DNA from: Tubiluchus corallicola | Taxonomy: Eukaryota; Priapulida; Priapulimorpha; Priapulimorphida; Tubiluchidae | DNA: 64,000 bases | Assembly (NCBI GenBank): GCA_030141605.1 | Contig: JAQGDQ010000151.1 | Span: 310,001 to 374,000, forward strand | Direction: 5' to 3' | Part shown: piece by piece, positions 1-42,322 of the stretch | Numbering within the stretch: position 1 is the stretch's first letter | How the letters are laid out: each line of letters starts with the position of its first letter | The notes under the pieces: generated by a model | The model's input: only the letters and a program-made list of their open reading frames with translations | Database searches by the model: none | What the model was told of the DNA's origin: nothing | Position numbers and translations under genes: made by a program

Positions 1-5
1 TTTGC

Positions 6-3000
6 ATGGAGAAGCAACCGTGTTATCCCGACTGGGTAGCTTACTGCCAAAAAGCAATGGAGGTCTGCATTAGGCGACAAGTCAAATGTAATTTATCAAA
101 CTTGAACAAATGTGACATATATTTCAGGTACTGTGTGGATGGTTGCAAAGTGTTCTCGAATGACTCAACTTGTAGCTATTACTGCAGTCAAAGGAAAATT
201 AACTGTACTAATGCTGCGAACGGTACATGCGAATCGACTGCTGTTTGTTTAAGAAAGAGAAATTTGTTATGTGTTGAAACGCTTTTTCTCCTTCCTAAAA
301 GGCAGTATTGTAAGGACCTTTATTACAATTGCAGTGCAGAAGGCGAGGCGAGGTGTGATCGCGAACTTGCGAACTGCAACGGCGAGTGTCGTTTGTGTAA
401 GCCACGTTGTGATTCAGCACTCCTGGGTGACTGTCTTGCTTTCTGCGATCAGGAACATTTTAACTGTGCAAAAGCTAAACCGGAGAAATGCAAAAAATTT
501 ATGCAACAGTTTCACAATGTCTCTTTGTGCGATCAGATATTATGGCCAGAAGATGAGCTGACTAACGATGTGCAAGAGCCAGTACCTGCAGCAAATGGTA
601 TGTTTTGTTAGAAAGCTAAGCGGAATAATAACATGGCCTAACATTGGTACTCTCTAGCAAGGAGATCATGTTAGCATGTCATGAACCTCTTATTTTAAGT
701 ATCTTTTAAGGCAGGATTTCACAGGACTTCAACTTTTTTGAGGTAAATAAAAATTTCCTAAATCCAACTGTCACCAAAATATTTATGCGAATGTATTTTG
801 TCTCAAACCATTTGTGTGAAGTTTGTGTGACTTTCGTTGCACTTTTGCGAATTTCGTGTTTTTCTTGAGCAAAAATGTGGTGTGAAATTTGCAATTTTTT
901 GGTTATCTTTGCCGACTTTAGGGACACTTGTGCGACAAAGCGACTGTCACAAAACATTCGCAAAACAGTCAAAACATTATGATCACTACAATATCACGAA
1001 ATTTTCACAAGGTCCACCAAAATGCCACAAAATCTTTGCCAAGTTTTTGCAGATTCTGAAATTGTTCCAACGTTTGGCAACAAATTTTCACAGATCTGAT
1101 ACATGTTACTACAACTATGACAGTTTGGCGAAGCTTTGGCAAGGTATTGAATTTTGAGTAGTAGTGGGTGCGGTCATTTACAAGATTACTTCGATTACTT
1201 AATATCAATAGTATCAATTACTTTGTTAAGTGATTGAATATAAACAATTACTTTTGTGCCTATAAATTTATAATAAATTTTGAAATACAAAAAAATAAAA
1301 ATTTGTTTGAAATAATTTTTAACGTGGTAAAATCATGGAAGTGAACATAACTACACCTTCTCACACCGACTCCAGTTAAGTTTTATCAGTTTAGCATGAC
1401 CAGAAGCCTAACAAATTTGCTGACTATAAAAATAAGTATTTTAATGTAAGTTACTTCAGAAGTTTCTCGCAAATAAATTTAAGGAAACTTTTTAAATAAA
1501 ACGTGATAAGTGTCTCATACTCTATTATAGGGAAGGTCTATAATAACTAAAGTATATGCTGCTGAAGATTCTAGAGACTTGGGCGTTTATTCATTGCAAC
1601 TCTGAGTGACAGAAACACAAATCTGTATATAGACACCCATGTCAGGTACAGATGCCGAAGCCCAATCACAGTAATCGTTAATCGCCTCTTCATTAAATCA
1701 GCGGTATCACCCACCACTAGTCTTGCGACTTCGGTGACAAACTTCATACATCATTTAAAAAATTTCCAAAGTCGATAATTTTTCCACTTTTTTGCAACTG
1801 TCTGGCAAACTTTCGGTGCATCTTCGGCGACATCTTCGGATCACTGAAGTCGCGAACCCTGTGAAAGGCTTTAATGTGAATGTGCTCTAGCATCTATTGC
1901 TTTTAGAATGCTTGTTTTTTATCTTAGATTCAAATATCTGCCTCCTAACAGTTCATCTTGCTTATGGGCAGCAATAGCAGATTGAACTTTATCCCACTGT
2001 GAAGTTGCAGCTTGTGATTAAATATTAAACATGCTATATGTTAGCTGTTAAACTGTTTTTCTTAGTGCTAATAAAATACTGGAATAGCCTTGGCATTACG
2101 AAATTCTCACTTATTGTGAAGGGTCTTTATTATGCCTTTTGCAATGTAGAAAATCATTTATTTTCTTTTTTTACAGTTGGTAATGTTCTCTATCACATTG
2201 CATTGCTGACAGCTGATGTGCAGTTTAGTGGAACCGCTGCAACTGTGGCTGTTTCTCTTCATGGCAGTTTGAACAGTACTTATGGAAGAGCCTTGGACAG
2301 CACTATACGCGACTTCAGTCGAGGACAGTAAGTTTTAGTAGTGCTCAGTGAGCTTCAGGATCGTTATTCAGAGAGTTACTTTACACTGTAGAAACTGATT
2401 CTTTTAGCAAACGAAAACAGCAAATTATACGGTGATGAAAAGTTTTAAATGCTGTAATTTTAGTCGGAGTCCCAGGAAATACTACATTTAACCTACACGT
2501 GACTAACCTTCACCGGGCAGTGTAAGCTGCTACATTTTCACTGTATATTACATGATGTGTTTATTGTTTATTAATTTAAAAGAGCTGTAAAGCAGCTTAC
2601 AGTTCTGGTAATTGTTAACATGTACACAATCGAAATTTGGCTATTTTTTGGTAATAATATAGTGTAGTAATAATTTTTGGTAGCCTAATTTATACCAGTA
2701 TTATATGTGTTGTACCAGTATACATGTTTGGTGTATTTGATTGTACATTATAGAAGTAATTTTAAGCTCTTTTTTCACTTGGTATCACAACCAAATTTAT
2801 GATTTTATGTGGCATAATGGAAGAATACTGGGCTGTATGGCTTTTTTAAACAATTCGAAATCCTGCAAACATTCAATGGCATAAAATTCAAAAATGAATG
2901 GTCGTTGTGAAATAGGAATCTGAGTCATTATCAAGTCTATGACTCGAGATTTAGGACTAGTCAATAAACACATTTAGCTGTGTATACGTTCTCTCTCAGC

Positions 3001-6000
3001 ATGGTTAGAGTAAAACCTAATACAGTTGATCTATCCGCCCACTAATCAGCTTGGTTAGTCAGTTAGCCAGTCATTTTTAACTTCGGTTGCCAAGATGACA
3101 CCACATACACTAGGCCATGCATCTTGCTCCAAGGCGAGTTCTTTAAAAAGACACTTTGTTACTTTCAGAACCTCAAACAGGGATCTTTCAGCATTTTAAC
3201 AAATGCAGATTTGTATGAACAGACTTGAAAGAATTAATTTGGACATACATGTATACATGTTCAACAGCTTTGTGAGAGAAATGTATTTACAAGACTTAGT
3301 GTAACACGTTTAGACCCATATTGATATTGCCCACATCAGTGTTGTATTTGCATGTGTGTGTCTGGGGGGGGGGGGGTGCGTGCGTGCGTGTGTGTGTGTG
3401 TGCATGCGTGTGTGTGTGCGTACGTGCGTGCGTGTGTGATATATAGGTAGAATAGATTTTTAAACTCAGTATCTGTTATATCTGAAGATCTCTGTGGCAA
3501 GTCTCTCAGTTTTTTCTAGTCTCCTCACTTATCTTTTTTAGCCAAATTAGCAATATAAATATTTTATGGTGCTATTTACTTTCAGAGTTGACTGGTTTCA
3601 AATTGAGGAAACAGATGTGGGGCAAATAAACAGTATCAGTGTTTGGCATGACAATACCGGACCAGACCCAAAGTGGTTGCTCGAAAAGGTAGTCCCTGGT
3701 GGAGAAAACTAGTTTCACTAATCTCAAGCTCTGTGTTTTGAAAGGAGACATTACATGATTTACTCTTGCAATCTGACTATATAAATTTACTTTTTATGTA
3801 GATTTATAATAAATAAAAAGCAAAAGTAATTATTCTCATACATGCATGTATGTAAGCCAAAACCGTCCACAAGTTGTTATAGTTAAAACTTGGTTATGAT
3901 CGTTCAAACTAGAACAAGTCAATCAATGTTTTGCTTATCACTATACTAAATGCAAAACATATTGGGATTTAATATTCTTCTATCAAATTGTTAATAAAAT
4001 GTTTTAAAAATACTAAAAATTGAATAACTTTATAACTTCCATCCAGCTTCTCTGCCTAAAAGGGTAGTATTTCGGTTGCAAAAAACTTGTATTTTGTAAC
4101 TCATGGTATGTAGCTCATGGAAGCAGCCATTTTGCTTGCAGTGCTTCTTGTTGTCAAGCCAACTCTAACAACCATTTTCAAACGTGACTTCAAGACGCTC
4201 TTACAAAACCCATAGTACTGCATTTTTGTAATTTTACTAAAAGATTTTTTTTAGAAATGGGACAAAAACAATGCAAACTTTAACAGTGGTTTTTTTTTTT
4301 TGTAGACTAACTTTCAGTGTTCATCTCAAACAAAGATCATCTCAGGTCAGAAATGACATAGAGTGATGAGCTTGATATTAAAATGATCCTTATGAAACAT
4401 AAAGATTGAGGACATTTGCAATAATTAAAGTACAGTACGAACTATGAAGAATAAAAGTTGAACAACAAAAATATATTTATGTTCGTACAAGTTATTTGGT
4501 ATCAAATGGCCTGAAGTTATGAAGAAAGGCCTTTGGAGTAAGCAGATCCAAATAAGAAAACTGCTTTGGACTAGATGTGCATTACGATTGCCCAGAATCA
4601 TTTCTTCCTACAATGCTGCATAAAGCTCTTATGTCAACAATAGCCAACTACTCACATAATTAAATGTTCATAGTTAAAATCAACACAACCTTATTTAAAC
4701 TTTCACTTTACAAAGGTAAAAAGCTAATATTATGTCAAACGTTTCGATAGACTACTGCTGCCATCATCAGTGGTAATTTACGAACATACAACCAGTTTAT
4801 ATAGGCAGAGCAGATCAATGAAGAAATTGATACAATAACTTATGCACGAATCGATAGTAATGCATTAGTAACTAGCACTAAGCATTAAACAACATACTTG
4901 AATGCTAAGCTCTTCACAGTAAGAATTTGTGAGCATTTGGATATTTTGTCTAAAACTGGCAAAAAATTTAAAGTCTCCTCAGTTCAGGATTAATGACCAT
5001 AGTTGCGCCTCTAGCCACAAAGCTGGTTTTGATAATCTTAATGTTACGACCAGAGCTACAAATAACTGAGACTTACTAATAAAAGAAAGTTTATCTATAT
5101 ACCCTAATAAGCCTTATCTTAATGTACAAAGCAGTTCAATTCCTTTAACTTTATTTTCAAATTCTTAGCTATTTGTTACTGTATCAATTTCTTTACTGGT
5201 CTGCTTGTTCATTGCCTATTTGGCTTCTGTTAACTACCTTCTGTTAACTGCATAATGGGTTCTGCCTATATAAACTGTTTGTATGTTTGTAAATTTACCA
5301 TTGTTGGTGACAGCAGTAGTTTGTCAAAACGTTTGGCATGTTTTTAACTTTGTAAAGTAATAGTTTTAATGTAGTTGTGTCATTTTTAGCTATAAATGTT
5401 TTTAAGAGCCTAATAATTAATTGTTCTGCGAAAGGCTTAGCAAGTACAACTCCAAATTTAGTACAATCGTATGTAGTTGCAGCTGACAGGAGTATTTGGC
5501 ATCAACAAGTTGCATTGACATGTCGTGTTTTAGAACATCGAAGCACATAGATCACAAGTAACTAAGAAAGCATAATTGCTGATGTGCACATGTTTTTGCT
5601 TTGCAAGCACACTTGTGGTACTTTATGAAATGTTATTGTGAATGTGAAATTTGCCAATTAGATTGTCAGTCCATTACATTTACTTGTATTTGAAAGTGAA
5701 TTTTTGTGAATACTTTATTAGGTTATCTTGGTGAAACAATATCATCAGTTTACTTGTCCTTGCATGACATGGCTAGAGGGACCTCCTAACATCAATCTTC
5801 AGACAATACCGTGCTTTCTTAGTGCAGATTATACTCCTATAGGTATTCGTAAAATTTAATTTGTCATACTATTAATTAGACATGTATGCTTACCTTGCAT
5901 TTTCCTTCGACAACCATTTTATTTAAATTGCAAGTTTTTCTTGATGACTGTTTAAAGTATTGTAGTCGCCACTTAATAGACTCATTTTGGGATCGACGTG

Positions 6001-9000
6001 TTTTGACCCAATTAACCGACTGAGCCTATAAACCGATGGGTGTAGTATTACTGCTATAGAAGTATGAGTCATCAGGTTACTATGCACCGCAAAGCTTTTA
6101 ATTAATTTTAGAAACGAAGTAATGCCTAAATTCCTTTGTGCAGTTAAAAATTAGGAAAAAATATTTTAAAATATTAATTTATATAAGTGAATCAACAATA
6201 AATTAAAAATTATACTTTTCTAAATCACACTTTTCTCTTGCATTTGTAAACCACACTTATAACGCTGACTCCACTTCACAGTCGTTTCCTGTGCATCGCC
6301 TGTCAGATGCTAGATACTCATTTTGGCTTGCTGACTGCTCAATTTCTGATTGAATTTCGGATTGTTTTTTCACTATTCTGCCGTGAGTACTTTGAGAAAT
6401 TTTCAACTGTGCTGCTGCACACCTCTGCCCCATCTTTGGAAGTTTATTGTACTGCTCTAAAATATTCAGTTTCTCCTTAACTGCTAGATCTTTATGCTTA
6501 TGCTCCATTTTTCAAACTTCCTAACTCTATGCCCTTATTTGCTGTGTGATGTTTACTCTTGTAATTCACAACGAATACTGACTGATTACTGTAACTGCAT
6601 CTTTGGCTCTTAACTCATTATGCTGAAAGCATGGCTTGCAACAAGAGCATCAAAAGCTAACTGCTAGGCAAGTGATTCAATGTTTAGCTTCCAGAAATTC
6701 TTTGGGTAACGAGGTTAATTGCAGTGGGCGAGCAGGTAACAGATTCAAAGCAAAACCTAGCATATACTAACAAAACAAAACGGTACTTAACATGATTGTT
6801 GCTACATATATGATGCACAAATGGGAAGTAAAGATAACATAAAAGTAGGAAAGGTTGTTTGCGCACATTTTAAGTACATGAAAGAAAAATACTAAGTCAA
6901 TTAAGCGAAGTTATTTGAGTCAATTAAGAGATTGAGTCTATTAACCGTGAGTCTATTAAGCGGCGGCTATTGTAGTATGTTAGCAAAGCAATCATCAAAT
7001 TAGTCTCTCTTCCAGAAAAAATATACTCGGTTTCAAATTTAATAGCATGTCAGTTGAAATATTTCTTACATATGCTGGGTTAACGTTTTAAACTTTTCCA
7101 AGTCAGTATTGTATATTTACTATTAATATCAAATGTGAACTGTCGCATTATTTTTACTGAAAAGGGCGCTTCACTAGCTAGGACTTGCGGCGCCCTGCAT
7201 GGGCGATACTTGATGTTCATGGACACTTTTTTCCTTTTCCCTTTGAAAAATAATAGCATAGCAGCATCCTTGTGTGGTAATTGCTTTTAGATTTCTAAAA
7301 TTTAACAGTGTTGTCTCATAGTTGCAAGAAGCTGTGAAGATAACTTGAAAACTTTGTGGTGTGAAAATAAATGAGTTCTTCCTGTATGCTTTAGAGGTTT
7401 CTTCAAATGTTAATACAGGAAAGAGCTTGTTTATAAGTAATTATCACAGTTAATTCGAGATGCAGAAACTTTGAAAGTGAAGAAAACTGTAAGTTTTACA
7501 AAAATATTAAATTATAATTGTCTTCCACAAAAGGTGCCAGAAAATATTATTAATGTGAAGTGCTTGTTTGTCTATGAGAATCGTACTTATCACGTAAAAC
7601 TTCTGGATTTCTAATACTGTACATTACTATGGTTATAGTTAATAAAATCTCTTATAAACAGAAACCTGTTGTAATTACTTTTGTGTGAAAGTGTAAATAT
7701 TTACTTTTTTCAGATCCAGAACTGGCGCGTGTAAACTTCAAAATAAGTTTTGCTTCCTTTCAGTGTTTATTCTGGAATTTCACATTGGAACAATGGTCTT
7801 CTGAGAACTGTATGGTAATGCTGATTTTGTAATCATTAGCTTAACACTTTTGTTGATAAAAAGTGCAGTTACTGTTAAACACATATCAAAACTTTAAGTT
7901 CTAGTATTCACAATAAAATTTACTTCCCTCATTTGGTTATAATCACTGCGAGGTATCTGTCGATGAATGGAACTTCTTGCATGGATTTGTGCTAAAGAAA
8001 ACAGTTTCGCCCAATTAAAAATGCCTGCTGATCAAAATTTTTGCTTGTTCATGTATCCTGTAGAGTTTTCTGAACAAAGCTGTTGTGTTGCACCAAAACG
8101 TGATGTTAAATTGAAACCATGTTTTCCGTAGGAAATAGTATAAAAGCTTGCAGTTGTTATCAGAACCAGTGCAACTTTTTGTAGAAACGATAGTGTTAAA
8201 AGACAAGTAATTACTTTCAAATTTTATTTTTGAACTATTTTATTACTTATCCATAGGCACCTATATAATATAACAAACAAATTCATAAATCTCACAGCAG
8301 TTGAAAAAATGTTTGAAAAGTCATTTTTGGCCTTGTCAGCCTAATTTTGCCTAGTTCTGTTTGATTTACAATGCAATAATATCATAACACTTCATGAAGC
8401 CATTTTTACAGGTTGGGCCTAACAGGACATGGAACAAAATCCATTGTCAGTGCCTCCACATGTCTACATTTGCTGGACGTTTTTTTGTCATGCCAAACAA
8501 GATCCATCCTTTCAAAGACATTGTCTTGTTTGCCGAGTTTTTCAATAACCCCGTCATTGTCGTGTTTGTTTTGTTCATATGGATGCTGTACTTTGTTGTG
8601 TTGATTTATGCAAGAAGAAAGGATCGGGAGGATGTAATACGGGTTAGTTATTTATATGCTATTAAACTAGGTGGACATTTTGCCATTGTCTTTTTGTTTA
8701 AACTGTCTGCCTATTTATTTTACCTCAGATCATTAATTTTTAATGACTCCATTATACATTCGCTTGCTTATGTCTAAGAATTATGCTTGTGTTATAAAGT
8801 ATATTTCAGTTGCCATTGTTATTATGTTTCTGTTGTCAGATCTTTATTTCAGTTCTTGTTTGATGTTATAAGCAGATCATTTTAATGTCATTCGTAACAA
8901 TTAAATTTTTATTATAAGCAGTACTAACACTAATACATTGTAGCATAGCACCTATAAAAATATTCATCACTAACCAAAGGGCAGCTGAATAGATGCAAAT

Positions 9001-9132
9001 TGGTCTTTCGCTGCTCTTTCTTCACATTTTTGTTTCAAATTTAATTGCATTATAACTGTGCGTGTGTTGCAAGATAAATAAAAAGATTATTATTGTTGCT
9101 GTTGTTGTTGTTGCTGTTGCTGTTGTTGTTGT

Positions 9133-9166
<34 letters not shown>

Positions 9167-12100
9167 GTTGTTTTTATTAATATATAAGCCTTCACGATGT
9201 ACTTTCTTTATTAACATACTTACATCTATCCATGTGCACACTTGTTAGCTCTAGCTGTTACTTAAGCTGGAATTGAAAGATCAGATCTGATTCAGGATTT
9301 TTTTATTTTTGACAATAATATGAGGAGGAAAAGAAAGGCATTTACTTGCAAAAAAATAATGTTGTTATCTCGTCTAATAGTGATACAGTAACTTGAATTA
9401 ATTGGCCTTGAATAAGGAATAGATTCGAGAATAATGGAATAAACTTATACAGTATGATTTCAGTAAGCAGCATAGTACAGCTTAAGCAGTTAAACTTTGG
9501 AGTGAAATGCATTTTTTGTCATCAGTAGTAGTGAAATTAGCTTTTCAATTAAATTTTGTTTATATTTCCAGTTGGGTGTGACAGTTTTGGAAGAGAACAA
9601 TCTCTTTGACACGTACACATATCTTATAACAACACATACTGGTATGAGACAAGATGCCCAGACAACTGCTTTGGTTACAGTGGTTCTACAAGGTTCCTTA
9701 AAGTTTTTATATTGCTTAAATAAGATTATGATGAGATCACTAATGTTATCAATCTGTTGCTTGTAATTCATTGTATCAATTGTGGAACCAATCAAACAAA
9801 TGATTTGTTAAATGATATGAATAGCATAGATACCAGTGTTTGTTAGTAGATTATTTAGATAATATTACTTCAATAATGGTTACGAATGTGTTTAAAGGTT
9901 TGTGAAAAGTACTGGCCGCAAAACTACTTTTTAAGGAAATATATTACACTACAAATGTATTATATACTTGTTTTATTTTCTTAGGAGAAGTAGGACAAAG
10001 TTTGCCAATAGCACTTTTTGATAGAAATCGACCTATCATGACTAAAGCATCCCAGGACTCGTTTGTAATGACCACACCACATTGCCTGGGAAATTTGCAT
10101 TCTCTTCAAGTTTGGCATGACAATAAAGGAGACAATCCTTCTTGGTAAGTACATGCTTGGAATAGCACTCGATTTTACACAAGAAATGTTTTAACTGTTA
10201 TGTAGGGCAGGCATTTTGATATACAATTTATGTAGGATAAATTTTCCTGAATTGTTTTTTATGCAAATTATCATAAACAAAAGTGCTCTAGCTTTTATTA
10301 TTTGAACAAGAGTAACATGCCTGTCCTATATATTCATGCTGTAAATGCTTTAGTAATGTCTATTTTACAAGTTATGAAGCAGCATTTATCAAGAAAAGCA
10401 ACCTCTTCCTTGTGTAAAGTTTTAGTTTACAGATAATAAGCAGCTGGCCAATGACAACTGCTAAATGCACGATTTTTTTTGTTTCTCTGCAATAGAGCAA
10501 TGAGAGATAATAAGGATTGGTTACATAACAACAGTATTTACTTAAGGTTTTTGAGACAAATCATCATAAAGGATATACAGACAGACCATACTTGGTTTTT
10601 TATCTACAATAACTGGCTAGCCGTTGATCGTGGACCTAAGACCATTTATTGTACATTGAAGCCAGCTGGTGAAAATCAGTTGAAGGTAACTTTATAATCT
10701 TGCACAAGTATTTTTTATATACAATTTGCCATTTTATAAGTTGTTGTCTAACCATTCACAGCCAGTCTTGTTTCATGATAATGGTTTGCTGTGTGCGTGT
10801 GTGAGTGTCCTGTGTATGTGTATGAAGGTGCGTGTGCATGCATGACCATGTGTGAGTGTCCTATGTATGCGTATGAAGGTGCGTGTGCATGCATGACCAT
10901 GTGTGAGTGTCCTGTGTATGTGTATGAAGGTGCGTGTTTGTGTGCGTGTGCATGCATGACCATGTGTGAGTGTCCTGTGTATGTGTATGAACGTGTGTGT
11001 GTGCATGACCATGTGTGAATGTCTTGTGTATGTGTGTGCAAGCATGTGGATGGGCAGGCGCATGTGCGCATGCATGCATGAGAGAGAGACACAGAGGAAG
11101 ATATGAAATTGAACTCATTAATGGTAATAGTTTGTTGAACTGCCAAAAATGTCTTGACCATATTTGGGCACATATCCACCTGGGTGTTCTCAGTGAAATA
11201 AATAGTGGCTTTGTGAAACCACCCAAAAGCAGTTATTTTAGCAAGCACCATTTATTGTTTCAGTCAACCAGATCTGACTTTGCTTAACTTTACTGTTGCT
11301 TGAAACTAACATTTGAGAGGTTTTCAAGTAAAGAGAATACAATAATGGAGCTATTACAATAACATAGTATATCTTGTCAAATAATGTTTAAAATGCAAAA
11401 AACTAATAATCGTTCTGTCATTTAATAGTCAAAGTCAGTTAATTCTAATTATAATGTAGAAACACAAAATCTGCAAACTGAAATAAGTTTGTAGTAGAAA
11501 ATAGATAGTTGTTTGACAGTTTTTACACTACAACAGTATCAAACAATCGGATTATCAAGCTTGAAGAACTACTGAAGTTAATTAGCTCAGCTAACCAATC
11601 TTCTGTATTATATACATATATATATGATATATATACTTAAACTAGTACAAAATACTTGCACTAGCATTGTAAAAGCTATTTCATGATATAAACCTTAGTT
11701 ATTTACCTTATAAACTAATAAAAACTACAAATTTTAGTTGGTAACTACATGGTCACTAGAGCATGAAGACTCACATTTGTGTCACTATTTTGACAATTAT
11801 GCAACATATCACTGAGCTAAAAGCAAGCACATGCTTATTGGATTCAGTTTGAGCACCAGTATAGAATATATCACTATGACTATGCATAATGAAAAATGAA
11901 AATAAATGGAACATCTTCATCACAAGATCTACTCTCAGTGTTATGAGAAATAATGATTTGTTGTTAAAAATGATTATAATTTTTTGCAGCAATTCTCTCA
12001 CCTCTTCACAAATAAATTCGTGGGAGATTTGAGAGATGATCACCTGTGGGCCAGCATATTTTGGAGACCTCCACAAAGTGCTTTTACACGAGTCCAGGTT

Positions 12101-15100
12101 TGTGGTGCTTTCTTTTGTGGACTTTTTCTTTTTCACATTTCGTATTGCATTTGAATATAGTATTAGTTAAAGTACTCGAACTTTGAGTGAACCTCAATGC
12201 TTCACCTGACTAATAGACTCTCTTACCTTGGCAAACTCTTCTAAAGCTTTTCAGTTTTCTTTGTTGAGTTTGGTTGACTTGATTCATTAAGTTGAATTAG
12301 TTTTAGTTGGTTGTCCGGTGGTTTGAATTACAGATTCAGCATATGCACTTAGGTGAAATGATTGTAATTATCCATGGTTTGCTTATTATTATTATCCATG
12401 GTTTGCTTATTATTATTACTTTTATGTACTGTAAATCAATAATACAGAATGTGTGTTTCGTTTTTATTTAATAGTTCTCAAAACTTTTTAATAGTAGTTA
12501 ATCGATAAAATAATCAATAACTACCAACTCAAAATTTTCCAAAAAAATAAATGAACATTCATTTGATTAATACCAATACCAAATAAACATAGTATAAATG
12601 AACTAGATTTTATTTCGTATCATCTAACCGTGCTTTAAAAGGATTCATTACGTTTTTTCTGCGAATTTTATTTTCTGGGAAATGGCAGTTCTGCAAATAA
12701 CATTTGGGAAATGACTGTTCTTAGAAAAATCTTTTCTGGGAAGTAAATTTTTCTGAAAAAAACGTTTTCTGTGGTTTTTTTGTCGGGGGAAAAAATTAAG
12801 CTGGCAAAAACTTTTCTGGGAAACGAATCTACCCCATATTTTGAGGGACAGAGTATTGCAAATATAACAAGTTTTAAATAATAATGGCAATCATTAATGT
12901 TATGGTGATGAGACCTATATAAAAGATTTTGTAGATTCCTGTCCTAAATTTTGCAATCTTTTTAAAATTCTATGTCATATATTTGATCAATATTTGGTAT
13001 GTTTTCTTACTTCTTGTAAATCCTTGGTGCTGCGCTAACTATTTTGATGTTATGTACTGTTCATTGCATATTTTAATTGTCTGTTTTTTGGCTTTACAGA
13101 GATTGTCATGTGCCTTATCATTGTTGCTTCATGCTATGCTAGCCAGCATTATGTTTTATGGAATTACTGAGAAACCAGAAGATCAACTTGCCATAGGGGA
13201 GTTCAAAATTTCTATACAACAATTTCTTATTGGTACATCTTAATTTCTTCATAATTCTTATAATTAATTGACACTCTGTTACATTTAATCTTCACTATTT
13301 ATACAATTTTACAATATACAGTTTATACGTTATGTCATTCTTTTAACAATTGCCGTATTTATGGCTAAAAACATAAAGCTGTCATCTAGGTATACGTCTA
13401 ATGTTAGTATAGGATTGCATATACTCTTAATGTTAGGAATGTCTGTAGTGAATTGCTTGGTGAGTGGTCATTTCTTAATTTTTTTGTTTTTTTAATTGCA
13501 GGTATACAAACCAACTTAATCGTTTTTCCAATTAATTTGCTTGTAGTCCAGTTGTTCCGCAGGACAACTACCCATGAAGACAAGACCCCAGAATTTGTTA
13601 GAGAGCTGTAAGATTTATTAATCTTTTGTTAGTGATGCTGTTGCAAGCTAATTTGTTGACATGTGCTGGTTTTAAGTATACTAGCACTACTCGGCTATAA
13701 ATAAATTGTACAAGTTTCTCTACATGAATATACACATTCAATGTTCGTATAAATGTCAATATATACTGATATATTTAATCTTGCTTGACCTATTCCATTC
13801 TTCACTGGTTTCTACTAGTCTTAGGATCGGAAATTCTGCAGACAACTTTTTTGTCTGCATTCTCCACCAATTTCTCTCGGCTGCTACTATTGCACATTCT
13901 GTTAGTGCTTTTACTTAGCTTTTTCTTAATTATATTACACATCTATCCATCTCGGCTATCCCCAAGACCGCTTTTGCTTCATTTTGTCCTCAAAAGATAG
14001 ACACGTTCGTGCCAGTTACACTGCAAAATGAAACAGAGACTTCTGGGATGGATTGGTCTGCTTTTGGGCTCGACACCAGGTCCTCAACTGCTGATAAGTT
14101 GACTGAGCTGTAGAGATACATTTACCTGATCCAAAAAATGCTGCTTTCAGTCAGTTTAATACATTACTTTTTTTAAAATTATCCTTTTTTGGTTGGGAAT
14201 ATGCTAATTTTTATTTAATTTTAAACACATCCAAAACCTCAATAGTCTTCGACGATCTTTTTGAAGCAATCAGTTTAAAATCTCCAGGTTCTCAGATTTG
14301 TCATTTAGATGCAGTTTTAGTGAGTTTTATATTTTCACAGTAAAGAGAAAACTGCAGATGCAATTGAAAGAGTAGCGGAACAATTTCGGGACAAACAGAC
14401 GGGTTCACTTGCTGCCGAATCTTTTCTTAGAGTATCTTCATGGGTAAGTACAGCAACCAAATAATATTAAAGCGGTTTTTAGATTAAACTAACTTTTTTA
14501 AGTTGCTGATCAAACTAACCAAACTGGATGTTAACTAGTTTGCAACTAAGGCTACACATTGTGGTTTCATCATACTTAATAACTTGGGAAATTTCGTCTG
14601 CTTAGCAATTTGTCTATAAATCTTGACCAATAGCGGTTCAAGGAATTATTACCAATGTTAGAAAAAGTAAGGCCTAACCACAACTTTCTATACGCGTGGG
14701 TTCGTCATTTTGGGGCTGTTAAACGTGCTGTTTTTCCAAGTATTGTCAGGCTGTTATGTTTTTTTCTAAATTGGTCTCATCTGTTGGAAACGTTTTGGAA
14801 ACATTTCTGTGCTAAATAAATTAGGCATGTTTTTTCAGACTTGTTAATGTTGATGATATAGGTCATTCATGTTGTTCATGTAAATGATTTTCCAATACAA
14901 CACTCTCAACCAATTGGAATCTTAATTAGATTACTTGGTTTATCAGTATTATTGTACCAAAACTGCTTTTAAATAATAATGATATGTTGAATTGTTTATT
15001 TTGAGAAATATCAAAGTTACTGGCAAACCAATCTGCTACTTTGTGTGTTTGCATTAGTGCTTTTGAATGTTGACTGTTGATATCCAAAGAGCTATGCTAC

Positions 15101-18100
15101 ATTTTACAAATGTTACTACAGTAGTCACCTCTTAGTATACTCAAGGTTAATACACTCAATCGCTTAATTGACTCAAAAATACCTGGATATGGGCAGCTTC
15201 CTTTCAAATATGCATCAAAACTAACGGTAATTGACTCAAATAACTTCGCCTAATTGACTCAATATTTTTCCTTCACGTACTTAAAATAAGTCATTTGTAT
15301 GTGCCCAAACAGCCTTTCCTGCTTTTATGTCATCTGTACTTCGACTTTGTGCATTATTTAAGTAGAAACAATCATGTTAAGTACCGTTTTGTTTGTAAAC
15401 AGGTACGTTTATCATTTGCTAATATGCTAGCGTAGCGGTTTTTCTTTGAATCTGTTACATGCTCACCCACTGCAATTAACCTTGTTACCCAAAGAATTTC
15501 TGGAAGCTAAACATTAAATCACTTGCCTAGCGGTCAAAGATGCAGGTACAGTAATCAGCCAGTATTCCTTGTTTCCTATACAGCAAATAAGGGCATAGAG
15601 TTAAGAAGTTTGAAAAATGGTGTAAAGATAAGTGTAAAGATCTATCAGTTAAGGAGAAACTGAAAATTTTAGAGCAGTACAATAAACTTCCAAAGATGGG
15701 GCAGAGGTGTGCAGCAGCATAGTCGAAAATTTCTTAAAGTACTCTCAGCTGAATATTGAAAAAATGATCAGAAATTGAGCAGTCAGCAAGCCAAAATTAG
15801 AATCTTGCATCTAACAGGCGACGCACAGGAAAAGACTGTGAAGTGGTTTCAGCGTTAAAAGTGTGGTTTAAGAGAAAAGTGTGATTTAGAAAAGTATAAT
15901 TTTTAATTTATTGTTGATTCACTTATATAAATTAATATTTTAAAATATTTTTTCCTAATTTTTAACTGCACAAAGGAATTTAGGCAGTACTTCGTTTCTA
16001 AAATTAATTAAAAGCTTTGCAGTGCATAGTAACCTGATGACTCATACTTCTATAGCAGTAATACTACACCCATCGGTTAATAGGTTCAGTCGATTAATTG
16101 GGTCAAAACACGTCGGTACCAAAGTGAGTCTATTAAGCGGCGACTACTGTATTGCTGATTTGATTATTTCAACAATAACCATCTTGAAATATCATATATG
16201 AATAACAAAACTGTTTATCAACACTCATGTTTTAAAGTTTTGCACTTGTTCTTGCTTTCATTTGCAAAATCGTTTTTTTCAGGTAGGAAAAAGCGAAATA
16301 AAATTTGACCAGGAAGAGGATTGGTTAGCCTGGTTGCGGAATTCTAACCGTTCAGAAGATAAAGCTGAAAAAGAAATATATAAAAAACTCAAAACCGCAA
16401 ACAAAAAGCTGGTAAAGTTGGCAAAAATGTTTAGCAAAGGTGCACAGGAGGAGTTTAGAAAGGCTTATGTGGCTGAAAGTGAAATTCTGAAACGTAAAGC
16501 AGACCTGAGAAAGAGAGGCGCGAGCGTATACGGAACTGATGACTGGTGGGGATACAAACACACCTACATTAAAAAAGAACGAGGTTTTTGGGATGGCATC
16601 ACTGCCTTGTTTAATATTCGTCATAATGATCATAATAGTCATATTAATACTCGTGACCATGAATGTAAGTTACCCTGGTGGTGTCTCTATGTTGCCTGGA
16701 CAGTTCTTATTGTTTCCTCATTAATTTCTTCTTACCTAGTCATGCTTTATGGACTAAGTTACGGATATAACAAAAGCGTTGACTGGTTGATTTCCATGAT
16801 GACATCATTCTTTCAAAGCCTGTTTATCAGTGAACCAACAAAGGCTTTGTTTACGGCTGCATTTCTCGCTTTTCTATTTAGAAAGCCGCCAGAGTTGGAG
16901 GCAGAACCTTATAATGTTCCTTTGCAGGAAGATGAAGAGTATCGTCAACAAACTTATTTTGGTACCTATCAAAGGTGAGAAAAAATATTCCATTATAAAA
17001 ATAAGTGTCACAATTACGTGCACCGTGTGAGCAATCCCTATTGCAACTGTGTTATAGATATTTGTTCACACTCTTGCTCAAGCATAGTCTGTAAATAGGA
17101 TGTTTTTCTCTTTCTGAATTTTGATGTAACAGTCTGATAGCCATTTGATTCTCTTGGCCACTTCTTATGTTTTGAGTGCAGATGAACGTCTACTTTTTTA
17201 AATATTCACCATAAACCTACTTGCAGAGAATGCCACTGACTGTATAGGCCTTCTGGCCACCCACAAAAATTTATTATGCAAGTTGGTGTTTCAGCTTCTT
17301 GGAATTTTGGAAATAAGGCCTATAGTTATATCTGATATTGTTCAAACATATATAAAAAGTACTTGTTGATTCGTTTATTAGTGTGGCACATTTTTATGCT
17401 TTTGCTTATTAGTGCATAACATATTGTACTAATATACGTATTATATTGTATAGTAATTTATTTCTATGCATATCATTTTTATTAATTATCCCACCTGTAT
17501 ATCATTTCTTATTAATGAGGCCTCTTTATCAGCGTTAACTATGGCCAACTTTTTTTGTTGTTCCTTTGACACTAATAGAAATATTATTACATATATAAAG
17601 TAATAGAGTGTTCTAACTGAAATTTCTGAGATGCAAATAATCCTGGCCTTGAACAGTTTATGCAAAATCACCCAGTATAACTACTAAACACATTAACTAG
17701 AAATTGTACTTTCATTTTCAACTATTTGCTATAACCTGATAAAAATATACCCAGGTATTGGACCTCGGATTCCATCAGTATCAATTAGTGCACAACCAAA
17801 TTTGTCTAAATCAGCTCATACTTCAAGTTTTTTAAAGTTAGTTAATTTTCTTGTCCTGAAAAATTTATAAAAAGTTATTAAAAAATTTATTTGTTTGCTT
17901 ATGCTTACCTTGTAGATTTTGTAGTTTCCATAATTACAGAAAACATTCCCAGTTTTGTTGATCTGAGAAAATGTAAATGCTGACTTGAAAAATGAACACC
18001 GTGTAGCAACATTCCACTATACTCATACATTTTGTTTAACTTTGTGTGTATTTTGCCCACAGCTATTTTAGCTTTCTACATTTTTAGCTTGCTTCAGCGT

Positions 18101-21100
18101 CGGGAGAAATACCAACCTCCAGATGAGAGGCAAATTGCTGCCACCAGGGAACGCCTCGTTTACCGACGAAAAATGCGGCGGCTTCTTAATGATATTGCAC
18201 TATACTTTTGTTATGCTTTGGTACTATCCAGATTCATCTACCATGTTGTTGATAGTAGGTAAGATTTTCCATACTAACATAGTATTAATTCTCATAAAAA
18301 TTTTATTTCTCTAAATAAACGAACTCAAACAGTATATGTGAACTAGACCATTAGTGTGATAGACTCTATTGTACCTTCATAGTGAGAAGTATTGCATGAA
18401 AAGATTTTCACTTTTTAGATAATTTTGGATTTGAAGCTTAACCTTGTTTTACTATTTGTGCCATCACCTGTCCATTATTAGAAGTCAAACAGTCTGGTAA
18501 CTTGAAATAGGCCTTGCTTACCCTAAGCCAGCTGAAGATTGTTGGAAGTCAGTAATTTTGGTTTTTCTAAAATTTTATTTCCATCTGAAATATGGTATGT
18601 TATCATATGAGATACAAAGCTTAAATATTGTTTCAGTGACAGGAACACTTAATGGGATTTCAGCAATAACTGCATTATAATTAAGTTGCTAGCGCTTCTA
18701 ATTTCACATGAAAATTTCACGTGGCAAAGTTGAATAACTAGAATATGAGAAAGAGAGAGTACAGAAGAGAGAGAGAAGTAAGGAGCAAGAAAAGAGGAAT
18801 GTGTTAAAGAGAGAGGGGGGGAGAAAGAGAGAGGGATCAAGAGAGTAAAGAAGAGAGATGAGTGATCTAAAAATCAGCATGCAAACAACTGAGGAGTAAT
18901 GCAAGTCTTTTTGTCAGTTTATGTATATTTTAAAGATTCACTTCATTCTAAGCTTTGGGTATTAAGGTTTATTTATTTGCTTTAAAATCTGAAGAATTTT
19001 TTATTAAATGAATTGATTGTGGTATTACAAACTATGAACAGTGAGTAACAGTGAACAACAATTTCGTAGAATAAAATTTTCTGTAATAATAAGCTTTCTG
19101 TGTATATGTAGTACTGAATACACATGCTGTAAAAGCAATTCTAGATTATTTAGTGTCTTTTTTGCAGAGCTTATTTGGTAACGAAGTCGGTTGAAGATCT
19201 TGTTATTAATCCTAAAATGCCTGGACAAACCAAATTTAGTCAGGTATCCATATTATTAGTTGATATTAATGTGACAAACGTGCTTAATCTTATAGCACCT
19301 GTTGTGTATAAGTATGAAATTTATTGTAACACAAATTGTGAATCTTCTTGTGCACTTTGCCTTGCCAATTTTATTTTTTTCGAATATTATTCGTGTTAAT
19401 ATTATTTTTGTTTTGTACAAAAAATACAATATTTCATGTATTGTTATTTCGAACGCAGAGTTAAGTCATCATAATGTGCTTGCTTTTCATCCAGGGTTCA
19501 TTTCCTGACCAAAGCCTTGAAAAATGGTACTGCCAATGGAAACTAGTATTAAAATATTTTGGATATTAGGCCTACCCCTAGACTGTGTCCTAGACATACT
19601 TACTAAATATCAAAATACTTGATTTTCTTTTCAGATTAAGGATGTGAATAGTATGTGGGACTACATGAACAACACTCTGGTACCAAATCTATTTTTAGAC
19701 ACTATGTATGATGGAAGTTTAGCACCACCTGGCTTTTCAGTTAACTTAGTAAGCAGATTGGTAGGAGTTATAAGATTACGTCAACTTCGAACTAAAGCAG
19801 GTAGATTTCTCTCTGTCTTGCGACGCATCAAAAGCCTTTGATCACTGTTGACATTCAGCATTCAAATGTTTTCAAAGTTGGCAATGGAGTCAGGCAAGGG
19901 GGTAAAATGTCCTCGATTCTATTTAATTTAAATTTTAAAGATTTGAGTTTGAAACTGGCATCTACACAACTCGGTTGCCAAATTGCAAACATTTCTGTAA
20001 ACTATTTTATGTAAATTGATGATGTATGTCTCAGGCAATGTTGCATCATACCTTTGGTACAGTGAATTATGTAATTTGGTTTTAATACCAAATGAGAAAG
20101 AAAAATACCTTGGCCACATCATGTCTCAAGATAATAGAGATGATTTAGATATTATTCGTCAGAGGTCTTTGTTCTATTGCAAAGCGAACAAACTTATTAG
20201 AAAATTTGCTTATTGTACAAATGATGTAAAGAAACAGTTATTTATCTCCTTCTGTAACAGTTTTTATTGCATGTCCACGTGGAGAAATTTTTATGATTAT
20301 AATCTACAAAAGTTAAAAGTAGCATAGAATATATCGATGAGGAAGCTCTTCAGTTATGACTATGATTTTAGTGCTAGATCTATGTGTGTACAACTAAATT
20401 TAAAATATTTTGGTGTAATACACAGAAAATGTGTGTACAGCTTGTTAACCCGTTTGAATAGCAGTTCTAATGTAATCTGCATGACGATGTTTAAAAGCGA
20501 TGTCCGTTTCAAATCAGAAAATATTGGCGAACTTTATTATATAGGCAACAAAGTGCGTAATGCGTTTTTGGTAACACTGTGAAATAAAAAGTAATCGTGA
20601 CTTAGCTAACTAAAACTTTATACTAGCACCAAGTTATTTAATTATTTATTTATGTATATAATTGTGTGGCCTTGTAATGGTATGAACAAAATTGTTCAAA
20701 ATGAAGTAAATCTTTCTCTCTCTCACTCTCTCGCTTTCTGTCTTTTCCTTTTTTCTCTTCGCTGTACTATAACGAAACAGTGAAATTACCACATTGCTGA
20801 CTTGTAGCTTTTTCTTGACTAGGTCAGTGCTCCATAGACCCAAGAGTTCAACCATTTGGTCGACGGTGTACGTCTTATTATTACTGGCCATTTGAAGACA
20901 ATAAGTCATACAGGTCAGGATGGAGGTATATTAAATATCCTATGTATCCTCCAGACCAATGGACATTTCAGTCAACACTTGAGCTGCGAGCACCTCCATT
21001 TCCAGGTACGTGATGCACTTTATATCACAGAAAGGTTTAAGTAGGTGTACTACAAGTTCTTCGCATTATGACACAAAAAACGTGGTATAACGTTTAATAT

Positions 21101-23269
21101 TGTTTATTGATCATTACTGATATTGATTATTACTTGACTCATAATAGACAGCTAGAGAAATTAATTAACGTTGATCTGTAGCATGATTTGTATGCTATCA
21201 TAAACAGTTACATTTTCATATTTTTATTTCAACTTGAAATGAAATATTAATATTTAAGTCAAAATTATAGTAACAATTTTGTTAGTTTCTGGTAATTTTA
21301 TTTTCGTTTTCTTAGTTAAAAAGTATGTACTGAAAAACACAGGCAAATGAAATACATAACTTAATGAAATAACTTTTTTCTTTTTTAATATTACTATAGT
21401 ACATGTATTTACGGTATATATATTTATAGTACATATATATATATATATATATATATGGGTAAACTTCAGTTTATATACAATTAATATGTAATTACAGCAC
21501 TGCATAATACTAATTTAATACTCGGTTTTGGGTGGCTGATCCGATAACTGATGTTTTTCACCCCTTCCCATTTGTTTGGCTTTTTTTATTTATACCTATT
21601 TTTCTTTGTATTGTTTTTGGGATGAAAAATAAATGATTTGATTTGATTAGATATGAACATTTGACTGTGAGACAAATAAAAGTATGATAGTTATGGTAGA
21701 TTTGCATTACTAGTGGGTTTTTCTAATCGTCTACCTGACAAAAACAGTTTTATGCTTGTCACTAATCAAGAATTCATTGTTAGTGGGAATCAAGTTAAGT
21801 GAGATAATTGATAGCAAAATATCATTATCTTTAAAAGCGTTGCTTTCATTAGTTGCTGATTTACATGTTTACCTGTACTGCACCTAATGTCTATCATCGA
21901 TTGGCTCTGACTAATTAACTAAGATTGTAACTAAACAAAAGAACTATGTACGTATGTTTACATAATCGTCTCTTTTGTAGGTACATATGGCTTATAATGT
22001 GCAAAATATTGTCAAATTATATACATGCATAACCTTATTTATCGATACAACCAAAATGTAATCATTTTGCTTGCAGGTAAATTTGCCTTATACAGTGGTG
22101 GAGGCTTCGTTAAGGAATTTACAGACAACAGCACAAACAACATTGCAATTATTGAATCTCTTATTGATTCCCGATGGATAAATGATCTCACTCGCGCAGT
22201 ATTCGTGGAATTCACTTTGTACAATTCCAACTCTCATATCTTTAGTGTCGTCATAATGCTCGTGGAATTTACTCAAGAGGGCAGACTGTATTCCAAGTAC
22301 GACATCACCACTCTGAATATACTCCGCTACTGGCAGAGCATCGAATGGTCTTTTATTACTACGCATTTCATATATGTTGTCATAATGATCGTTTTTATCT
22401 TCAGAGTGCTTAGAAATGCTTTCCTTCATCGCTTAGCCTACTTCACTTACTTTAGGGAATGTTTTGAGCTTTCCGTTGTTGTTCTGTCCCTCGCAAGCAT
22501 GGTATTGTTCATAAGAAAAACAGTAGTAATCAGCAATCTGTTGAATTATCAGTTACCAGGCAAAAATGGAGCCACTAGTCAGTTATTTGGTAAAAGTGAT
22601 GTAGCCACTCGGTTGCAAGACATGAGTGATATACCTGAACTCATATACAGTACCGAGAGTGCCTTTATCAATTTCTATGAGGTGGCAGTATGGGACACCA
22701 CGCTTAGATACCTTCTGGCTGTACAGGTGTTTCTGATTACAGTTAAAGTTGTGGAGTTCACGTCTTTTACAAAACTATTGGGGAAATACTTTTACACTAT
22801 CAAGGCTGCACTGCCTGTGATATTTAACTACCTGATAATCGTTTTCTTTTCCTTCGTTCTCTTCACTCATGTGGGTATACTTGTTTTCGGTACGCAAGTA
22901 GATGATTTTAAGAATGTTCCCAGTGCTCTATTTACATTAATGAACATGCTTGTGCGAATTGGAGATTTCCATGCCATTATTTATGCTACCGGTTCTATAA
23001 CTGGCCCTTTGTTCTTTGGATTGTTCATGTTCTTTGCCTTCATTTATGTGATGTCCATCTTCCGCTCTGTATTAATGCAAGCTTACACAGCCGTGTTTAC
23101 ACTGTGGACTATAAAACCCATTAAACTTGATGTTATTGAGTACGTCAGGCGTGAGATGGGTGGAACTGCTAACCTACAAGTAGTAAAACAAAAAGTAGAG
23201 CACATGAGTGCAATGAGACGAATGCGCCGAGCAACTATACATGAAAAGATTGATCCAGAATGGTTTTAG
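6..23269 (+). CDS. Polycystin-1-like receptor/channel protein (5' end outside window)
   Basis: Exons: <6-597, 2177-2327, 3586-3688, 5722-5842, 7714-7814, 8412-8642, 9572-9692, 9985-10144, 10547-10685, 11990-12097, 13100-13232, 13502-13607, 14341-14443, 16283-16974, 18088-18258, 19168-19243, 19635-19800, 20823-21005, 22077-23269. All junctions are GT-AG and phases agree, giving 1549 aa from the first visible Met. Order: Cys-rich region (residues 1-197, 25 Cys); PLAT (about 198-322; WHDNTGPDPKW); GPS (about 339-385; CLFWNF, then CQCLHMSTF); first membrane helix (about 400-420); second PLAT (about 434-573; WHDNKGDNPSW, WFFIYNNWLAVDRG); membrane helices from LPWWCLYVAW onward; polycystin extracellular domain (ALYSGGGFVKEF, WINDLTRAVFVEF) and channel region with RIGDF. 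Family knowledge: polycystin-1 proteins are 11-helix membrane proteins that pair with polycystin-2. Residue 1 has no signal peptide and the frame is open to the window edge, so the N-terminus is missing. Which PKD1 subfamily it belongs to is unclear. Family assignment is firm; inclusion of the first exon rests on phase and reading frame. Confidence 0.9.
712..1861. mobile_element. Possible non-autonomous hAT-like DNA transposon
   Basis: The left end (CAGGATTTCACAGGACTTCA) and the reverse complement of the right end (CAGGGTTCGCGACTTCAG) look alike. Interior stretches near 1160-1200 and 1680-1720 also resemble each other in inverted orientation (GTAGTGGGTG and TAGTGGTGGGTG). Bases 705-712 (TTTAAGGC) and 1862-1869 (TGAAAGGC) match at six of eight positions, which could be a decayed 8-bp target duplication of hAT type. 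No transposase is visible. It lies in the first intron of the polycystin gene. Confidence 0.35.
3363..3438. repeat. Poly-G followed by GT/GCGT microsatellite
   Basis: A run of about 14 G is followed by alternating GT, TGCG and TGCA units up to 3438. It sits in the second visible intron of the polycystin gene, about 150 bp before the 3586 exon. Confidence 0.9.
4681..5385. repeat. Inverted-arm repeat, about 160-205 bp arms
   Basis: The left arm (about 4681-4840) and the right arm (about 5175-5385) are diverged reverse complements. Both carry, in order, a CTTTACAAAG block, a CAAACGTTT block, an ACTACTGCTG block, a block reading through CATACAA.CAGTTTATATAG, and GAAATTGATACA.TAAC. The roughly 335-bp centre shows no coding potential. 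The arms could be long terminal inverted repeats or two copies of one element inserted head to head. It lies in the polycystin intron between 3688 and 5722. Confidence 0.7.
5960..6972 (-). mobile_element. Tigger/pogo-like DNA transposon, internally deleted, copy 1
   Basis: The element is 1013 bp, bounded by TA at 5958-5959 and 6973-6974. The terminal inverted repeats resemble CAGTAGTCGCCGCTTAATAG, as read from the better preserved second copy. TA target duplication and CAGT-type ends are typical of the pogo/Tigger group. Near both ends the motif TTAATAGACTCA or its variant TTAATTGACTCA recurs several times. The minus strand carries a CENP-B-like helix-turn-helix ORF (6257-6508). The DDE catalytic part of a transposase is absent, so this copy cannot move itself. 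It lies in the polycystin intron between the first PLAT and the GPS exons. Confidence 0.85.
6257..6508 (-). pseudogene. N-terminal HTH fragment of a Tigger/CENP-B-like transposase
   Basis: The 83-codon ORF begins MEHKHKDLAVKEKLNILEQY and continues NKLPKMGQRCAAAQLKISQS. This has the pattern of the CENP-B/Psq helix-turn-helix at the N-terminus of pogo/Tigger transposases: basic start, EKL.ILEQY, then a second helix with AA.QLKISQST. The protein ends soon after the HTH and lacks a second DNA-binding domain and the DDE domain, so it is a relic. It could in principle still bind the element's ends, but expression is unknown. The same region in the second copy (about 15617-15860, + strand) is broken by stops and substitutions. 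Confidence 0.7.
9092..9171. repeat. GTT/GCT trinucleotide microsatellite
   Basis: About 80 bp of GTT triplets with interspersed GCT and one GTC lie in the polycystin intron before the second PLAT exon. The minus strand reads as a poly-Asn/Ser ORF, which is an artefact of the repeat. Confidence 0.95.
10797..11040. repeat. 51-bp minisatellite, about five units
   Basis: Units begin GTGTGAGTGTCCTGTGTATG and end GCATGCATGACCAT. The clearest units are 51 bp; the third is longer through an inserted GTGT stretch, and the last two are degenerate. The array lies in the polycystin intron between 10685 and 11990. The unit is a multiple of three, which is why long ORFs run through it on both strands; these have no splice or family support as exons. 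Confidence 0.9.
12367..12414. repeat. Perfect 24-bp tandem duplication
   Basis: The unit ATTATCCATGGTTTGCTTATTATT (first 20 bases ATTATCCATGGTTTGCTTAT) occurs twice head to tail in a polycystin intron. No function is evident. Confidence 0.85.
15119..16149 (+). mobile_element. Tigger/pogo-like DNA transposon, internally deleted, copy 2
   Basis: The element is 1031 bp, flanked by TA at 15117-15118 and 16150-16151. The left end is CAGTAGTCACCTCTTAGTAT and the reverse complement of the right end is CAGTAGTCGCCGCTTAATAG. It is the same element as the 5960-6972 copy in the opposite orientation, similar along its whole length including the HTH-coding region (about 15617-15860). That region here carries stops and small changes. 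It lies in the polycystin intron between 14443 and 16283. Confidence 0.85.
18740..18866. repeat. GA-rich low-complexity tract
   Basis: A purine-rich stretch of GAGA/GAAA units (AGAGAGAGAAG, GAGAGGGGGGGAGAAAGAGA) lies in the polycystin intron between 18258 and 19168. Confidence 0.85.
19806..20590 (+). mobile_element. Non-LTR retrotransposon (LINE) reverse-transcriptase fragment
   Basis: Translation in shifting frames gives reverse-transcriptase landmarks: CDASKAFD near 19821-19845, GNGVRQGGKMSSILFNL near 19880-19930, a decayed F(Y/M).DD box near 20005-20025, then EKYLGHIMSQDNRDDLDIIR (about 20096-20165). The last piece continues through RKFAYCTNDVKKQLFISFCN to about 20580. The segment between the first two motifs is missing and stops interrupt the frame. 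The order matches the C-terminal half of CR1/L2-type LINE polymerases. It fills the polycystin intron that begins at 19801. It is a dead 5'-truncated copy. Confidence 0.85.
20711..20760. repeat. CT-rich low-complexity tract
   Basis: TCTCTCTCTCACTCTCTCGC followed by further CT-rich sequence lies about 60 bp before the 20823 exon. It may also serve as part of a distal pyrimidine-rich stretch for that splice acceptor. Confidence 0.7.
21431..21456. repeat. AT dinucleotide microsatellite
   Basis: An alternating AT tract of about 26 bp lies in the last intron of the polycystin gene. An AT-rich intron stretch surrounds it. Confidence 0.9.
21590..21655 (+). repeat. Possible LINE 3' tail
   Basis: GATGAAAAATAAATGATTTG followed by ATTTGATT resembles the 3' ends of CR1/L2-type non-LTR elements: a polyadenylation-like AATAAA followed by a short repeated word. 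No coding part is attached here, so this may be an independent 5'-truncated insertion. The call rests only on the tail pattern. Confidence 0.35.
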
Positions 23270-42171: not shown

Positions 42172-42322
42172 TGTGGTCCGAACGAAAGTGTATGTCCACA
42201 CACATTCATACAGTTACCCTTGTAGATCATACTGACTTTTATCATGTAGTTACTGCAGCTCAGCAAATCATACTTTCGACACATTTTAGGCCTGTTGAGC
42301 AAACACTCTAATCTTGCTAAGT
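42172..42322 (-). other. Probable 5' UTR part of the OATP first coding exon
   Basis: A splice acceptor (TTGTTTTAG on the minus strand) ends at 42323. The 150 bp from it to the ATG resemble the equivalent stretch of the decayed upstream copy, where an acceptor is also kept (exon edge at 45617). This suggests that one or more non-coding exons lie further upstream. The reading frame of the ATG has a TGA just before the alternative Met at 42201, so this segment is not coding for the transporter. Confidence 0.5.

Follow-up and report, generated by a model that had tools for sequence, protein, structure and literature searches.

A polycystin-1-like gene family in the priapulid Tubiluchus corallicola with predicted PLAT domains on both sides of the GPS

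Can a polycystin-1-like protein carry one PLAT domain before its GPS and first membrane helix and another after them and, if so, where does the additional domain come from and how is it accommodated beside the cleavage motif? The question is raised by a gene near the start of a 64,000-nucleotide stretch of the Tubiluchus corallicola genome (assembly GCA_030141605.1, contig JAQGDQ010000151.1, here C485, positions 310,001 to 374,000 of the forward strand), referred to throughout as the window. Judged by its sequence, the window locus is a single gene and belongs to a large polycystin-1-like receptor/channel subunit family that is expanded in this genome. The additional, upstream domain (PLAT1) and the usual one (PLAT2) are treated separately below.

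Domain order in the window gene and its paralogs

The window gene was modeled by splicing 19 exons by script (window 3-23269, plus strand), which yields a frame of 1,551 codons with a single, terminal stop; all 18 introns are GT-AG and the exon phases are compatible throughout. Splicing and Pfam searches together give the domain order as a Cys-rich region, PLAT1, GPS, one helix, PLAT2, Polycystin_dom and PKD_channel. A sequence-only reading of this DNA had proposed a protein like polycystin-1 in which a full PLAT domain at 2177-5842 precedes the GPS and a second at 9572-10685 follows the first helix, and both domains, as well as the family identity, are borne out by Pfam and by the spliced model. 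PLAT1 is encoded by exons 2177-2327, 3586-3688 (which contains WHDNTGPDPKW) and 5722-5842 (with the motif TCPCMTWLEG), and the spliced PLAT1 region on its own matches Pfam PLAT with 54.8 bits (E 1.9e-14, cut-off 23). A lone PLAT1 exon is weak in a six-frame genome search (15.3 bits, E 7.1), so the evidence for PLAT1 is the spliced domain together with its paralogs. When the whole model is searched, two PLAT stretches are found, of which the best (residues 451-559) directly follows the first helix; this is PLAT2 (exons 9572-9692, 9985-10144 and 10547-10685), for which the best match in the PDB is human polycystin-1 (1.1e-18). The GPS occupies residues 340-378, ahead of the first helix (PF01825, 28 bits versus a cut-off of 22.5), its first half being encoded with the pre-GPS strand at 7714-7814 and its second half (C.C.HMS) with the first membrane helix at 8412-8642. 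About 18 residues separate PLAT1 from the first GPS Cys, close to the 17 or so claimed earlier.

The remaining exons complete a polycystin-type channel subunit. The 5' end of the model (3-597) is the 3' part of a long exon for a Cys-rich, predicted extracellular region, whose open frame is continuous with the upstream DNA, the exon starting near C485:309676, and which has homologs at 37 places in the genome. Membrane helices and a loop are encoded by five exons (11990-12097, 13100-13232, 13502-13607, 14341-14443 and 16283-16974), placed by their likeness to the frame of the paralog L001 described below and joined by phase-compatible GT-AG introns. A further four exons (18088-18258, 19168-19243, 19635-19800 and 20823-21005) lead into and include part of Polycystin_dom, and the last (22077-23269, stop codon at 23267-23269) contains the rest of that domain and PKD_channel. 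In Pfam the C terminus of the model scores 126.7 bits for Polycystin_dom and 85.8 bits for PKD_channel.

The intron between PLAT1 and the pre-GPS exon (5843-7713) is long, as would be expected if two adjacent genes, or sequences joined in assembly, only had the look of one gene. We consider this highly improbable, given that the exon phases fit at the window locus, that a Cys-rich exon followed by PLAT1 recurs on many contigs, and that the identical order is found in uninterrupted frames elsewhere. A search of the same genome with PLAT and GPS profiles located five loci, C1882 (L001), C2172 (L004), C198, C1923 and C1930, at which a single frame of 2437-2748 codons without interruption contains a PLAT, a GPS and another PLAT; the order was established by position at all five and by reading at two of them (L001, 2739 residues, and L004, 2748 residues). 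In L001 the order is a hydrophobic start, REJ, a helical/strand-like stretch, the Cys-rich block, PLAT, GPS, a helix, PLAT, further helices, Polycystin_dom and PKD_channel; its GPS scores 26 bits in the genome profile search yet is absent from the Pfam listing of the same protein. The five loci are near copies (96% likeness between L001 and L004 along 8.6 kb) and are thus not independent proofs of the domain order. Six contigs that bear introns (C1705, C207, C1862, C1724, C225 and C2160) also have a GPS match flanked by two PLAT matches, all on one strand. Because uninterrupted single-frame paralogs carry the same order, PLAT-GPS-PLAT is the predicted order of one protein, and for the family the two-gene reading is contradicted.

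The same model suggests on which side of the membrane each PLAT domain lies. Where the polycystin-1 family has 11 membrane helices, a simple hydropathy scan of the window protein gives 11 peaks, two of them overlapping, and between PLAT1 and PLAT2 there is a single strong helix (residues 405-423). Every one of the eight full-length PLAT1 sequences counted has exactly three Cys (TCPC...C) and one or more N-x-S/T sequons; the count had nine rows, the ninth being a 48-residue first-exon fragment with neither the Cys pattern nor a sequon. Four PLAT1 sequences assembled later for the tree stand outside this count, and in one of them, C859b, a fourth Cys was seen by eye. The sequon is absent from four of six PLAT2 sequences, three of the six being incomplete. 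The single intervening helix, together with the Cys residues and sequons of PLAT1, leads us to place PLAT1 outside and PLAT2 inside the cell, in agreement with the extracellular location proposed for the extra domain by the sequence-only reading.

The Cys-rich/PLAT1 block and the GAIN domain

The ordinary polycystin-1-like form is also present in this genome: at C1787, REJ and GPS lie in one 670-residue frame without a PLAT domain, and PLAT exons follow that frame. In the PLAT1-bearing form the GPS is preceded by PLAT1 and by a Cys-rich block of about 220 residues (window 1-597 and upstream; C485:309676-310597), which shows about 30 invariant Cys when six copies are aligned, is carried by a single exon in the intron-bearing members read, and matches no family in Pfam, the sole library tried. 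The earlier claim that no REJ/GAIN module fits between PLAT1 and the GPS holds in the narrow sense: the window model has none there, and room for one strand only. It is incomplete, however: ahead of its Cys-rich block the paralog L001 has a GAIN-like stretch and a REJ domain (residues 284-681, Pfam E 9.2e-45). The domain search proposed with that claim returned PLAT and GPS for the window model, REJ for L001, and no GAIN.

This REJ/GAIN-like region upstream of the Cys-rich block in the paralog is the reason to think that the block probably splits a GAIN domain ahead of the GPS: the Cys-rich region and PLAT1 would together form an insert of about 360 residues placed just before the GPS-leading strand. 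A different arrangement, in which PLAT1 has taken the place of the GAIN B sheet and the GPS is an uncleaved relic, would account for the short gap between PLAT1 and GPS and for the lack of a significant upstream GAIN match; we regard it as rather unlikely in view of three observations. The residues H-[LM]-[ST] are retained at the GPS in all seven loci for which the second GPS exon was read (the window, where they are H-M-S, and C1882, C225, C2160, C1705, C859 and C207). All 10 copies aligned have, ahead of the Cys-rich block, a stretch of the type YY.GILFDSY..P.C in which the last Cys never varies but other positions do, and YYLGV or YYIGV occurs shortly before the GPS-leading strand in two of three ordinary members (C1787 and C1831). 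The residue spacing is, furthermore, compatible with a GAIN domain plus an insert: with the block (approximately residues 1150-1509) removed, the distance between REJ and GPS is about 419 residues in L001 versus about 372 in C1787, the REJ ends of both having been extended to the end of the REJ profile.

Profile comparisons give a split GAIN domain no significant support. Compared with ordinary GAIN regions, the segment preceding the insert gives E 0.12 with seven rows and, with ten rows, E 0.006 to C1831, 0.056 to C1787 and 0.61 to C2047, where the ordinary sequences of C1831 and C2047 are exon pieces joined by eye. The corresponding ten-row scores are 19.4, 14.5 and 8.3, so that only C1831 exceeds the shuffle maximum of 16.4 (n=90). 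The flanks joined across the insert do match the ordinary set with 98.7% probability, but mainly via the GPS part, and neither the PLAT1-bearing nor the ordinary form has a Pfam GAIN match. A GAIN domain split by the Cys-rich/PLAT1 block is nevertheless the best reading of these sequences, with weak profile support.

Origin of PLAT1

The two PLAT domains of the window protein share the block WHDN.G..P.W, and they had been said to have a similar exon structure and to result from an internal duplication. The exon structures do not agree. PLAT1 is interrupted at FSRGQ^VDW (phase 2) and LLEK^V (phase 0) and PLAT2 at VLQG^EVG (phase 1) and PSW^FLR (phase 2), with no intron position in common. In a tree of 29 PLAT sequences the PLAT1 group (support 100/100) and the PLAT2 group (99/98) are distinct, and PLAT2 lies on one side of a branch (100/98; 96/98 in a further tree) with three ordinary polycystin PLAT domains, the human one included, while PLAT1 falls outside. 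PLAT1 is about equally like PLAT2 (mean 30.8%), ordinary polycystin PLATs (30.3%) and other PLATs (31.2%).

Outside the polycystins, PLAT1 joins one 78-residue PLAT fragment of contig C2184 in the 29-row tree (93/87, the branch not being starred); from its many PLAT matches we take C2184 to be LOXHD1-like. Four C2184 PLATs were read, and in one of them, L022, the boundary between exon pieces falls where PLAT1 has an intron, splice sites and phase being outside that reading. The best match of window PLAT1 alone is a coral lipoxygenase (7e-7).

Other results count against an origin outside the polycystins and leave room for a PLAT1 that is a duplicate of the gene's own PLAT2. When a five-sequence PLAT1 profile is run against the PDB, the human polycystin-1 PLAT comes first (2e-14) and lipoxygenases follow (6.5e-11). 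Forcing PLAT1 and PLAT2 into one clade costs 14.3 log units with 29 rows (approximately unbiased (AU) test, p 0.054) and 6.9 with 22 rows (p 0.246), and a forced clade of all polycystin PLATs is worse by 5.0 (p 0.086) and 3.0 (p 0.141) log units, respectively; with p values of 0.054 and 0.086, neither constraint is rejected. Since the two domains have their introns at different positions and PLAT2 groups with the ordinary polycystin PLATs in the tree, internal duplication is disfavoured and we judge it unlikely. Derivation of PLAT1 from a non-polycystin PLAT appears the more likely origin.

A family at many loci, its relatives and a possible mechanism

The extent of the family was estimated from the Cys-rich exon. 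A genome search with the C1705 copy as query and a limit of E 0.001 yielded 42 matches, which reduce to 37 places once five second pieces of the same exon are dropped; this number is a lower bound of matches and some of the places are likely haplotype copies, so that the number of genes may differ from it. PLAT1 is present downstream of the Cys-rich exon at 34 of the 37 places, a count that leaves out C2061, C2157 and C2114, and none of these 34 is without it. A table of PLAT matches (77 of 106 rows were used, the 29 omitted being on C2184, C2055, C44, C2105 and C2125, contigs without a Cys-rich match) shows, in the 8 kb that follow 25 of the 37 exons, a PLAT match whose start lies no further than position 6 of the profile, and a later, mid-profile PLAT within 20 kb of 20. 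In six further places that were fetched, a PLAT1 hidden Markov model found PLAT1 exons in every case (E 7e-9 or better), all three in order in five of them and, at C1210, exons one and two in the 5 kb that were fetched. Reading also established PLAT1 at C859:565597, C862 and C1409, which had been candidates for members lacking the domain and were rejected as such.

A near copy of the window gene (L034) lies on the window's own contig, begins at C485:166537, about 143 kb upstream, and keeps the splice sites in the four exons compared. These exons (B-E) are 95-98% identical to their counterparts, the aligned pieces containing them 77-92%. Between the two copies exons B-E have 10 non-synonymous and 7 synonymous codon differences; the pair therefore gives no strong signal of purifying selection, which counts against our overall interpretation.

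Several further features of the assembly were noted. The intronless single-frame loci stand beside intron-rich paralogs and are possibly retrocopies that spread. On C1442 and on C1633 this Cys-rich exon occurs as inverted pairs whose members score identically, perhaps palindromic assembly artefacts. At C2040:387-2127 (L041) an 87-bp unit containing the first half of a GPS exon (QCVYWDEHLEKWSDKGCK) and an apparent splice donor is repeated 20 times with 96% matches, a tandem array grown from a GPS exon; a similar array at C1210:13779-15663 is known from spaced GPS matches alone. Elsewhere in the window, exons of an OATP-type organic anion transporter occupy 34225-45203 (minus strand), where two pieces hit one and the same section of the transporter profile and perhaps represent two tandem copies, and an exon at 60821-62194 (plus strand) encodes an Asx-type PHD_3 domain (61.7 bits), presumably of an ASXL-like gene.

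The PLAT1-bearing proteins resemble the polycystin-1/PKD1 family (human PC1, sea urchin SpREJ) in having a GPS before the first helix, a PLAT after it, Polycystin_dom and PKD_channel, as well as REJ, here in the single-exon paralog, and differ from it in the Cys-rich block and PLAT added before the GPS. In the SpREJ paper, PLAT is described as "always found intracellularly" (PMC1934368), a generalisation that does not extend to a second PLAT located before the GPS and first helix. For Nematostella polycystin-1 and a coral skeletal REJ protein the available portions of two papers name WSC, PKD repeats, REJ and PLAT, and for the coral protein also GPS (PMC8846589, PMC4890752); PLAT and, in the single-exon paralog, REJ are shared with these cnidarian proteins, for which those portions name one PLAT, intracellular in PMC8846589, versus two in the window family. 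LOXHD1-like tandem-PLAT proteins and lipoxygenases, to which PLAT1 is linked by its grouping with the C2184 fragment, differ in that no GPS or channel was seen alongside their PLATs. The GPS region of the window protein also matches that of the adhesion G-protein-coupled receptor ADGRG6 (E 9e-4), but the window family is without the seven-transmembrane receptor part and has a PLAT and Cys-rich block beside its GPS. A PLAT-GPS-PLAT order was not found in the literature searched, which lay mostly outside subscription journals and was available in part, and it may exist in sequence databases; within that literature, the PLAT1-bearing proteins are a previously undescribed variant of the known polycystin-1 family.

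PLAT domains of other proteins bind lipids and membranes. Such binding is also stated in PMC6299612. The polycystin-1 GPS, according to a review (PMC4810088), cleaves itself within the GAIN fold, requires the residues around H-L*T, and leaves two parts that stay together. By analogy, the proteins of the PLAT1-bearing family may cleave and signal like polycystin-1: the GPS (H-M-S) would cleave itself and the halves would remain associated, the Cys-rich/PLAT1 block next to the cleavage strand would bind an outside partner (a lipid, a membrane or a matrix protein), and binding or pull by this partner would alter the exposure of the tethered segment and gate the channel part, PLAT2 presumably retaining its usual intracellular role. 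The explanation as a whole, namely one gene of an expanded family whose proteins have a Cys-rich/PLAT1 block beside the GPS, inserted in GAIN, through which partner binding gates the channel, we consider likely. More tentative, and in our estimation short of an even chance, is its most specific form, in which a self-cleaving GAIN domain holds the Cys-rich/PLAT1 module between its last strands, a PLAT outside the cell that senses lipid or membrane is coupled directly to the cleavage strand, and dozens of loci constitute a sensory or recognition repertoire.

PLAT1, as placed here, is an exception to the published rule of intracellular PLAT domains in polycystins, and the family offers a natural test of how GPS/GAIN is coupled to an extracellular binding module. 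Its presence at tens of loci suggests diversification of ligands. The activation of polycystin-1 has long been a question in kidney disease, and a natural construct with a possible sensor beside the cleavage site makes parts of that question testable.

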